This document shows, one piece after another, positions 26,122-31,830 of a stretch of 38,335 nucleotides of DNA. The translations under genes were made by a program, and so were the position numbers. Under the pieces are notes generated by a model. That model made no database searches. It worked only from the letters and a program-made list of their open reading frames with translations, and was not told the origin of the DNA. Position 1 is the stretch's first letter; each line of letters starts with the position of its first letter. Origin of the DNA: a virus; the IMG/VR virus record IMGVR_UViG_3300032087_000996, positions 1 to 38,335 of that record. One strand, 5' to 3'.

Positions 26122-26547
26122 ATGGAATTAAAAGACAGTAAAACAGCAGAAAATTTAAAAGACGCTTTTAGTGGCGAATCACAAGCAAATAGAAGATACT
26201 TATATTTTGCTCAAAAAGCAGATATTGAGGGTGCTCCAGATGTTGCTTCAGTTTTTAGAAGTACAGCAGAGGGAGAAACAGGTCATGCTCATGGCCATTT
26301 AGAATATCTGGAAGAAGTTGGAGATCCAGCAACAGGTGAACCAATGGGTGAAACCGAAGCAAACTTAAAATCTGCTATACATGGTGAAACACATGAATAT
26401 ACAGATATGTACCCTAGTATGGCAAGAACAGCTAGAGAAGAAGGCTTCGAAGAAATAGGAGACTGGTTTGAAACATTAGCAAAAGCAGAAAAATCTCATG
26501 CTGGTAAATTTCAAAGGACACTTGACAATTATATTGAAAACAAGTAG
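26122..26547 (+). CDS. rbr: Rubrerythrin (diiron domain only)
   Basis: A 141-residue ferritin-like four-helix bundle. Diiron ligands are visible in two E-x-x-H-type pairs: FSGESQANRRYLYFAQKA (first Glu), STAEGETGHAHGH (E-x-x-x-H), AIHGETHEYTDMY (Glu) and LAKAEKSHAGKF (E-x-x-H). The C-terminal rubredoxin domain of classical rubrerythrins is absent. It would reduce peroxide or sequester iron. It is preceded by a 230-nt structured leader with its own promoter, and followed by the promoters of gp32, whose -35 lies in its last codons. Confidence 0.9.
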   Translation: MELKDSKTAENLKDAFSGESQANRRYLYFAQKADIEGAPDVASVFRSTAEGETGHAHGHLEYLEEVGDPATGEPMGETEANLKSAIHGETHEYTDMYPSMARTAREEGFEEIGDWFETLAKAEKSHAGKFQRTLDNYIENK

Positions 26548-29164: not shown

Positions 29165-29902
29165 ATGGCATTACCAAAGGTGGAAACACCAACATATGAA
29201 TTGACTTTGCCCTCAGCAGACCAAAAGGTCAAATATAGACCTTTTCTTGTAAAAGAGGAAAAAGTTTTATTAGTAGCTAGTGAAACAGGTAAACAAGAAG
29301 ACATTTACAACGCTACTAGAGAAATTGTAAACGCATGTACTTTTAATGAGTTAGACGTTGACAATTTACCACTATTTGATTTAGAGTATATCTTTTTAAA
29401 TATACGTGCTAAATCAGTAGGTGAGAAAGCTGACTTTAGAGTATTATGTCCAGATGATAAAAAGACATATGCTAAAGTTGAGATTGATCTTACCGAAGTA
29501 AACGTAGAAGTTGATGATGAACATACAAATAAAGTAATCATTGACGCAAACAAGAATTTAGGTGTTGTACTTAAATATCCATCGCTTGCATTATTAAAAG
29601 GGCAAGAAGATATAGACACAGCTAGTATTGAAACAGTATTCAGTACTTTGCTAAAGTGTGTTGACCATATCTTTGAAGGGGAAAAAATATATCCAAGCAA
29701 GGACAGTACAACAGATGAATTAAAAGAATTTTTTGAACAACTTCCACAGGAAAAGTTTTTAGAAATAAAGAAATTCTTTGATACTATGCCTAAGGTTAGA
29801 TATGAAACAGAGGTTACAAATCCAACCACAGGTGTAAAGAGTAAAGTTGTGTTTTCAGGACTAGCAGATTTTTTCGAATCAGCCTCTCCCATAACAGCCT
29901 AG
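29165..29902 (+). CDS. gp26: Tail assembly protein gp26 (T4_baseplate family), zero-frame product
   Basis: A 245-residue protein of the T4 gp26 type (T4 208 residues). The N-terminus MALPKVETPTYELTLPSADQ, then KYRPFLVKEEKVLLVA, is the family signature; further conserved parts are CTFNELDVDNLPLFDLEYIF and FKVLCPD-like RVLCPDDKKTYAKVEI. Codons 235-237 (GAT TTT TTC) carry a slippery heptamer followed by a hairpin that contains the stop codon. The protein is thus probably made in two forms, 245 residues and a 299-residue frameshift fusion, the arrangement of tail assembly chaperones. The strong AAGGAG site gives high expression. Confidence 0.88.
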   Translation: MALPKVETPTYELTLPSADQKVKYRPFLVKEEKVLLVASETGKQEDIYNATREIVNACTFNELDVDNLPLFDLEYIFLNIRAKSVGEKADFRVLCPDDKKTYAKVEIDLTEVNVEVDDEHTNKVIIDANKNLGVVLKYPSLALLKGQEDIDTASIETVFSTLLKCVDHIFEGEKIYPSKDSTTDELKEFFEQLPQEKFLEIKKFFDTMPKVRYETEVTNPTTGVKSKVVFSGLADFFESASPITA

Positions 29903-29916
29903 AGGCGTACTTCGAA
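29869..29916 (+). promoter_or_regulatory. Programmed -1 ribosomal frameshift signal
   Basis: Slippery heptamer T TTT TTC at 29869-29875 in the correct phase (X XXY YYZ). A six-base spacer follows, then a perfect 6-bp stem GCCTCT/AGAGGC (29882-29887 with 29901-29906) with a 13-nt loop; the zero-frame TAG (29900-29902) lies at the stem. An outer TTCGAA/TTCGAA pair (29873-29878 with 29911-29916) could extend it. The -1 frame stays open to 30063 and encodes a conserved-looking domain with no start codon. Confidence 0.85.
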
Positions 29917-30063
29917 ACATCATTTGCTCTGATACAACATCATAAATACTCTTATGGTGAACTTGAAAATATGATACCTTGGGAAAGGGACATATACGTG
30001 AACATGCTAATCAATTACATTAAAGAAGAGAACGAAAAACGTAGGAGAGATAAGAATGGCTGA
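29875..30063 (+). CDS. gp51: gp51-like domain expressed only as -1 frameshift extension of gp26
   Basis: A 62-residue domain in the -1 frame relative to gp26, from CGA at 29875 to TGA at 30063. The frame is closed upstream by TAA near 29839 and has no ATG, GTG or TTG until an ATG inside the conserved motif (ENMIPWERDIY). Sequence highlights: AYFETSFALIQHHKYSY, then GELENMIPWERDIYVNML and a charged helix. This resembles the 'baseplate hub assembly' gp51 of T4-like marine phages and the T domain of lambda-type G-T chaperones (HHxxxxxELxxM). The fusion would be 299 residues. The stop overlaps the next gene's start. Confidence 0.78.
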   Translation, partial: RISLSHNSLEAYFETSFALIQHHKYSYGELENMIPWERDIYVNMLINYIKEENEKRRRDKNG

Positions 30064-30349
30064 GGTCACTAAAAAAGTAAACTTAGAACTTGAAATTGAT
30101 ACAAATACTATTGATTCAAGTAAAAACAGATACCAAGGTTTAATTGACCTTGCAAAGGCGACAGATAGTTGGAGAATATTTCCAAGAATATTCATCTCAA
30201 CATACATTTACTTACTATACAAGGTTGTAATATGGTATATGGAGTTATCAGCTCCTACTATGGAACAAAGTGGGTTAGTATCAGTAGTTGTTGGTGCTGG
30301 CGCAGCTTGGTTTGGTCTATATGCAGGTACATCAAAAAAGAGTAAATAA
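30056..30349 (+). CDS. Conserved small membrane protein of the tail module
   Basis: A 97-residue protein. A polar N-terminus with NLELEIDTNTIDSSKNRYQG, then DSWRIFPRIFISTYIYLLYKVVIW (span 1) and SGLVSVVVGAGAAWFGLYAG (span 2). The motif DSWRIFPRxFIxxYIxLLY is conserved in marine T4-like phages; some annotations suggest holin, which I cannot confirm. It lies between the frameshifted chaperone and the tape measure, overlapping both by a few bases. Confidence 0.7.
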   Translation: MAEVTKKVNLELEIDTNTIDSSKNRYQGLIDLAKATDSWRIFPRIFISTYIYLLYKVVIWYMELSAPTMEQSGLVSVVVGAGAAWFGLYAGTSKKSK

Positions 30350-31830
30350 TGGCAGTATTAGAGTCAGACGTTAGAGATTTATTTAAAACTATCATGTCAG
30401 ATACTATGAAAACGGTATCTGCTGGTAGAAAGACAGTAATTGCACCAACGGTTGTCAGACAGTTAGCAAAAGAAATAACTGCTGAAGCTGAACAAGGTAC
30501 AATAGCTGCCTTTGAAAGTGCATTATCAAAAGCAGAAAAGATAGTCAATCAATTAGGTTTCAACGTTAAAGACTTTAATAAAGGACTTGGTGATAGAATA
30601 GAAGAACTAAAAGAACAAAAGATCAAAGCAGATAAAGAAGTTACTGATCTAAGAGCAAAAAATATTGTTGCTGAAACAAGAACTATACGAGAGGGTAAAG
30701 AGTATAGAATTGAAGCAAACATCTTAACAAATAAAGAAATCAAAGATAGACAGAGAATATTACAAAAACAAGAAAAATTATATATTAAAGATGAAAAGAA
30801 TGTTAAGAAAGAAAGAGAAAAACTCCTTAAAAAAGAAACTCTAACAAACAAAGAAAAAGAATTTATAATAAAAGAAGAAGCAAGATTACAAGAATTAAGA
30901 AACAATTTAGATAATGAAAATGAAGTATTAAATCCTGATGGTGAATCACCATTAGAAGCTAGAGAGGGTATGCGATTACCACCTGCTCTACAAGGATTAT
31001 TAGACGCATTTATGTCGCCATTTATGGCAATAGGCGAAGCATTTACAACTTTTAAAGATCAGATAACAAGTGTTGGCGAAGTATTTGCATTTGGTTTTAA
31101 AGGTTTAGGTAAAGGATTTAAAGGGTTAATTAGTGGTATCAAATTCTTAGGTGCTTTCTTTATGTCAGGCAAAGTATTAATTGGTGTTGCTATTGCAGGT
31201 TTAGTTGTTGGTCTAATTAAGTTTAGAGATAAGTTAAAAGGTGTAAAAGACTTTTTAATGGGTATACCTAAAACAATAGGTGATTTCTTCAAAGAACAAT
31301 TTACTAACATCAAAAACTTTTTAATTGATGTAATCAATGGTATAATCTCTATAGTAAATAAAGTATTACCTAAGAGAAGAGAAATACCACTAATACAAAA
31401 AGAAATTGTTGAAGAAAAAACTGGTGCAGAAATAGGAGAAGACCTTGACGCATTGTTACAAAAGAAAGAAATTGAAAGTGAAAAATTAGGTCCTTCAGGT
31501 GATGAAGCTTCCATGATTTCAAATTTAAGAGGCGCAAATCAAGTTAAGATTACAGGTAACAATCAGGTCGGTGACGTATTAGGTTCATTAAGTTATCAAC
31601 CATTTGATATGGCAAATTTAGGCAAATCACAAGAAGAAAGAATGATTGACGCTAACACAATTAAAGAACAAGAATTACAAGATAAATCAAAATCTAATAT
31701 ACCATTCTTACAGAATAATAATAATCAAACAAATATTAGTGGATCAAGTAGTACGACAGTTGGTATGTCAAGTGGTACATCTAATGGTGACGCAACGTTT
31801 GATAATATGGCAGGTGCTGTATCTCCCTAA
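30349..31830 (+). CDS. gp29: Tail tape measure protein (gp29-like)
   Basis: A 493-residue protein with the tape-measure plan. Long charged coiled-coil helices run from residue 75 to 205 (e.g. EELKEQKIKADKEVTDLRAK and IKDEKNVKKEREKLLKKE), then a hydrophobic segment (VLIGVAIAGLVVGLIKF, about 276-292) flanked by Gly/Phe-rich amphipathic repeats (GFKGLGKGFKGLISG), and a Ser/Thr/Asn-rich C-terminal tail. Position right after the gp26/gp51 chaperone pair and before the tube cap gp48 is that expected of gp29. By the usual 1.5 angstrom per residue rule the tail would be slightly shorter than T4's. Confidence 0.78.
   Translation: MAVLESDVRDLFKTIMSDTMKTVSAGRKTVIAPTVVRQLAKEITAEAEQGTIAAFESALSKAEKIVNQLGFNVKDFNKGLGDRIEELKEQKIKADKEVTDLRAKNIVAETRTIREGKEYRIEANILTNKEIKDRQRILQKQEKLYIKDEKNVKKEREKLLKKETLTNKEKEFIIKEEARLQELRNNLDNENEVLNPDGESPLEAREGMRLPPALQGLLDAFMSPFMAIGEAFTTFKDQITSVGEVFAFGFKGLGKGFKGLISGIKFLGAFFMSGKVLIGVAIAGLVVGLIKFRDKLKGVKDFLMGIPKTIGDFFKEQFTNIKNFLIDVINGIISIVNKVLPKRREIPLIQKEIVEEKTGAEIGEDLDALLQKKEIESEKLGPSGDEASMISNLRGANQVKITGNNQVGDVLGSLSYQPFDMANLGKSQEERMIDANTIKEQELQDKSKSNIPFLQNNNNQTNISGSSSTTVGMSSGTSNGDATFDNMAGAVSP

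Follow-up and report, generated by a model that had tools for sequence, protein, structure and literature searches.

In phage lambda, the tail assembly chaperones G and GT are a short form and a -1 frameshifted long form encoded upstream of the tape measure gene, and the slippery site is G_GGA_AAG. For the T4-like phages, the 2022 work by Vladimirov et al. reportedly concerns genes 26 and 51 of T4 and finds frameshifting preserved in several T4-like groups. The lambda G/GT shift has been described as widely conserved, "except T4" (PMC5009743). The idea that genes 26 and 51 provide short and long chaperone forms has already been published, reportedly with a polyT slippery site in some groups and a separate gene for each form in others (Vladimirov, Gautam and Davidson, Virology 2022). 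Two other papers note that some T4-like phages pair a short gene with a long, fused one (PMC10885494) and that polyT slippery sequences are known in the TAC-N genes of T4-like phages (PMC12846349, citing Vladimirov et al. 2022). The latter paper also gives the chaperone locus of the Vandenendeviridae and Andersonviridae a conserved -1 layout with the polyT signal GTTTTT; these are different phage families, likened to ours by layout and signal.

We analyzed a 38,335-base virus record from IMG/VR (the window, meaning the whole stretch of DNA), in which a locus with gp26-like and gp51-like reading frames would encode tail assembly chaperones of the G/GT type by -1 frameshifting, where T4 uses two genes instead. 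We put the probability of this reading, drawn from sequence comparison, at about 90%. The original prediction knew of no such description for the gp26/gp51 pair, but the idea was published by Vladimirov et al. in 2022. Because the mechanism has been described for T4-like phages, the window locus is a further member of a published kind; it is a well-supported additional lineage, not new in kind.

The gp26-like gene, the candidate short form (TAC-N, the G equivalent), encodes 245 amino acids on the plus strand at 29165-29902 and ends in the stop codon TAG at 29900-29902. It matches PF12322 over the full model (positions 1-219) with an E-value of 1.5e-62 and 211.6 bits, against a curated cut-off of 24.5, and phrog_150 with an E-value of 9e-68. 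It is the only PF12322 copy within the window. Downstream on the same strand are a small ORF of 97 amino acids (30056-30349), which overlaps the end of the -1 frame, and a 493-amino-acid ORF (30349-31830), two genes from gp26, with a weak match to phrog_991, tail length tape measure protein (E 8e-6). The large downstream ORF of phage phiM7 is similar (E 1.8e-5). The proposed tape measure gene would be this tape-measure-like ORF, but it is not the next gene, since the small ORF comes first. In this the window also differs from lambda, to which it is likened by layout. Upstream, at 26122-26547, lies a rubrerythrin-like gene whose positional counterpart is annotated as such in Pelagibacter phage Mosig.

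Near the end of gp26, the slippery heptamer T_TTT_TTC occupies 29869-29875 on the plus strand, where the zero-frame codons are GAT TTT TTC, so that it is in phase as originally proposed. An open -1 frame spans 29845-30063, and past the shift it adds 62 residues (29875-30063, 62 codons and a stop, plus strand), which would form the gp51-like C-terminal domain (TAC-C, the T equivalent). This frame matches phrog_634, baseplate hub assembly catalyst (gp51), with an E-value of 9e-28. No ATG, GTG or TTG occurs in it before 29971, a position inside the conserved core, which bears out the proposal of a gp51-like frame lacking a start. The predicted fusion is 299 residues long, with the junction around GLADFFRISLSH. 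In-phase T_TTT_TTN occurs 8 times in the 7,447 codon sites of the window and, given the residues D-F-F, local codon usage alone would produce a slippery spelling in about 58% of cases. Since such a spelling is common by chance, the window alone is weak evidence, and the strength of the case lies in conservation.

We then compared the window with 80 IMG/VR relatives, which were the best matches to the query and so represent close kin and not a random sample. The gp51 domain is in the -1 frame in 81/81 sequences, and each has a single in-phase heptamer, spelled TTTTTTC in 65 and TTTTTTT in 16. None of the 81 has a usable start before the gp51 core. Heptamer phase was thus conserved as predicted, and none of these sequences from the window's lineage (0/81) lacks the slippery site or gives gp51 a start of its own. 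Past the zero-frame stop, mean pN/pS among 54 distinct sequences was 0.225 in the -1 frame and 1.2 and 2.5 in the other two, which shows strong purifying selection on the -1 frame.

From a wider search we took a spread of named phages. Layout and heptamer recur in Mosig, KVP40, CC2, phiM7, ACP17, Yut2, S-ShM2, RHph_Y68, RHph_N34, DSL-LC02 and P-SSM5, and the heptamer is retained in phages of Pelagibacter, cyanobacteria, Vibrio, Aeromonas, Sinorhizobium, Rhizobium, Acidovorax and Stenotrophomonas. KVP40, used as an IMG/VR query, returned two loci only. In the GC-richer genomes the heptamer goes against local codon use, from which a slippery spelling is expected with a chance of about 0.017 in ACP17, 0.11 in Yut2 and 0.08 in RHph_Y68. 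The gp51 domain read in the -1 frame lacks any annotation in Aeromonas phage CC2 (locus L085, 3681-3869). A 2010 survey listed gp51 as missing in Aeromonas phage Aeh1 (PMC3037559), which may be the same oversight.

The six-nucleotide spacer after the heptamer reads GAATCA in the window (29876-29881, plus strand) and GAATAA, including the zero-frame stop TAA, in many relatives. In most lineages the zero-frame stop lies exactly one codon past the shift codon (TTC NNN stop); a single base change from GAATAA to GAATCA appears to have moved it seven codons further in the window's clade. The spacer is followed on the same strand by a stem with the arms GCCTCT (29882-29887) and AGAGGC (29901-29906). 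Both spacer and stem had been predicted, along with inclusion of the stop in the stem, but only two bases of TAG are part of it. Five of the six pairs (GCCTC/GAGGC) are conserved in close relatives and the sixth forms in about half of them; for the six-pair version, 90.8% of cells pair among 47 distinct sequences. A compensatory exchange of C-G to G-C at one pair was seen in three sequences (loci L035, L063 and L076), perhaps from one event, and the covariation score exceeded all 500 shuffles and all slid versions of the stem. The proposed conservation of the stem therefore holds among close relatives; in more distant phages the same stem is not obviously shared. The predicted fold gave a z of -2.8 for a 72-base single strand and -1.8 for the 40-base stem region alone. 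It also lengthens the stem with a second helix, in which 29872-29878, including part of the slippery run, pairs with UUCGAAA at 29911-29917.

We also asked how the locus relates to the two separate genes of T4. In T4, Acj61, Riv-10 and Morttis, both gp26 and gp51 match PF12322 (along the length of gp26 in T4), and a phrog_634 tail, the profile matched by the -1 frame of the window, is present on T4 gp51 only and not on gp26. In the alignment T4 gp51 spans the fusion from end to end and T4 gp26 stops at the shift point, so that T4 gp26 corresponds to the short form and T4 gp51 to the whole long form of the window's locus. The T4 genes are on opposite strands and lack a slippery site, whereas the window has one locus with the -1 layout. 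Whole-genome searches found one PF12322 gene in 16/16 phages with the -1 layout, of which ten have the T-run heptamer and six do not, and two, as separate genes, in each of T4, Acj61, Riv-10 and Morttis, where the heptamer is absent from the end of gp26. In a tree of the PF12322 part, T4-type gp26, T4-type gp51 and the single-copy group were separate, both T4-type groups were supported, and Riv-10 gp26 and Y68 were on long branches; with three groups and no outgroup, the tree cannot date the duplication. One T4-type gp51 gene (locus L130, about 2863) is broken by a frame change past 120 codons, either a sequencing error or a pseudogene. At the level of sequence, these comparisons establish the two-frame architecture, its conservation and the selection on it, and the paralogy of gp26 and gp51.

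Could gp51 instead be translated on its own as a short protein, through termination-reinitiation or from a non-standard start past the gp26 stop? An ATG overlaps that stop (TAATG or TGATG) in KVP40, Yut2, RHph_Y68 and RHph_N34, where annotators used it and where reinitiation could therefore supply gp51. However, the window and 80/80 close relatives have no ATG, GTG or TTG before the core, CC2 and ACP17 also lack a start close to the stop, and a separate gp51 would leave unexplained both the in-phase heptamer and the correspondence of T4 gp51 to the whole fusion. We therefore consider this explanation improbable.

Less probable still is that a conserved D-F-F at the end of gp26 gives rise to the heptamer incidentally, the -1 frame being what is left of a fused gene after decay. 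T4 gp26 also carries FF near its end, so F-F at this place is partly a protein constraint, and the AT-rich window would often spell D-F-F as GAT TTT by chance, at the frequency of about 58% given above. Nevertheless, T4 gp26, from a two-gene phage, has E before FF and thus no slippery run, the spelling is kept in GC-rich ACP17 (P of about 0.017), and the -1 frame is open in every sequence and strongly constrained by purifying selection. Conservation likewise leads us to reject plain chance. The six-T homopolymer at the junction might suggest a sequencing or assembly indel that split one continuous gene, but the -1 relation recurs in 80 other contigs and in isolate genomes from many groups; these independent sequences refute an assembly error, to which we assign almost no probability. 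Taken together, the reading of gp26 and gp51 as G and GT chaperones is supported by the phase of the heptamer in 81/81 sequences, the start-less -1 frame, the stem, and the equivalence of T4 gp51 to the whole fusion.

The -1 layout also occurs without a canonical heptamer, in Bue1, LIMEstone1, Ag3, K751, D509 and VPALA. Among 18 Ackermannviridae-like loci from IMG/VR, the gp51-like domain is in the -1 frame in 18/18, none has a canonical slippery heptamer, ATT TTC AT(T/C) TAA is invariant, and in most the first start is about 32 bases past the stop. The Ackermannviridae and the Vibrio phages D509 and VPALA have one PF12322 gene. In these phages the same long chaperone might come from -1 slippage at the non-canonical site (A/C)TT TTC, followed by one codon and the stop, and we give this somewhat less than even odds. 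As a guess, the tRNA decoding TTC would slip next to the stop in the Ackermannviridae-like loci; reinitiation is possible where the stop is part of TAATG (Ag3, LIMEstone1 and D509). If the non-canonical shift is real, canonical slippage, non-canonical slippage beside a stop, and gene duplication would be three routes to one protein pair. In the LIMEstone1 record, gp26 (locus L091, 2489-3295) is marked as a confirmed structural protein, which does not agree with a chaperone that would be absent from the finished virion.

An AlphaFold2 model of the window's gp26 was confident, with a pLDDT of 85.6. With VIA-align 2, the top match of model residues 1-85 was the HK97 tail assembly chaperone 2ob9 (4.1 Å over 84 residues), at a Z of 7.2, a value within the range reachable by unrelated models. 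The next match was an uncharacterised protein, 3fgx, at Z 7.1, and the first clearly unrelated one was at Z 4.4. Foldseek alone gave no match to the gp26 model with E < 0.001, the HK97 chaperone coming first only with the second aligner; the model of T4-type gp51 gave no chaperone match, a result still compatible with the fold, and searching PDB sequences with the alignment of the fusion yielded no relative. The modeled likeness of the N-terminal part of gp26 to the HK97 chaperone is thus suggestive.

We infer frameshifting, its rate and the chaperone action from the sequences and from the analogy with lambda. Most ribosomes would terminate at 29902 and release the short form, gp26, and a minority would slip back one base on T_TTT_TTC, probably aided by the stem 6 nt downstream, to make the 299-residue long form with the gp51-like domain. 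If lambda G and GT are a guide, the part common to both forms may bind the tape measure protein, and tail tube subunits may be recruited by the extension. The paralogous genes 26 and 51 would give T4 and its close kin the same two products.

The fusion would explain why marine gp51 seemed about 200 residues too short in the 2010 comparison (PMC3037559): the missing part is gp26, to which it would be joined by the shift. Many records of cyanophages, vibriophages and pelagiphages list gp51 as a gene in its own right where it is probably the tail of a fusion. The gp26/gp51 locus would then be a clean case of recoding and gene duplication as alternative solutions.
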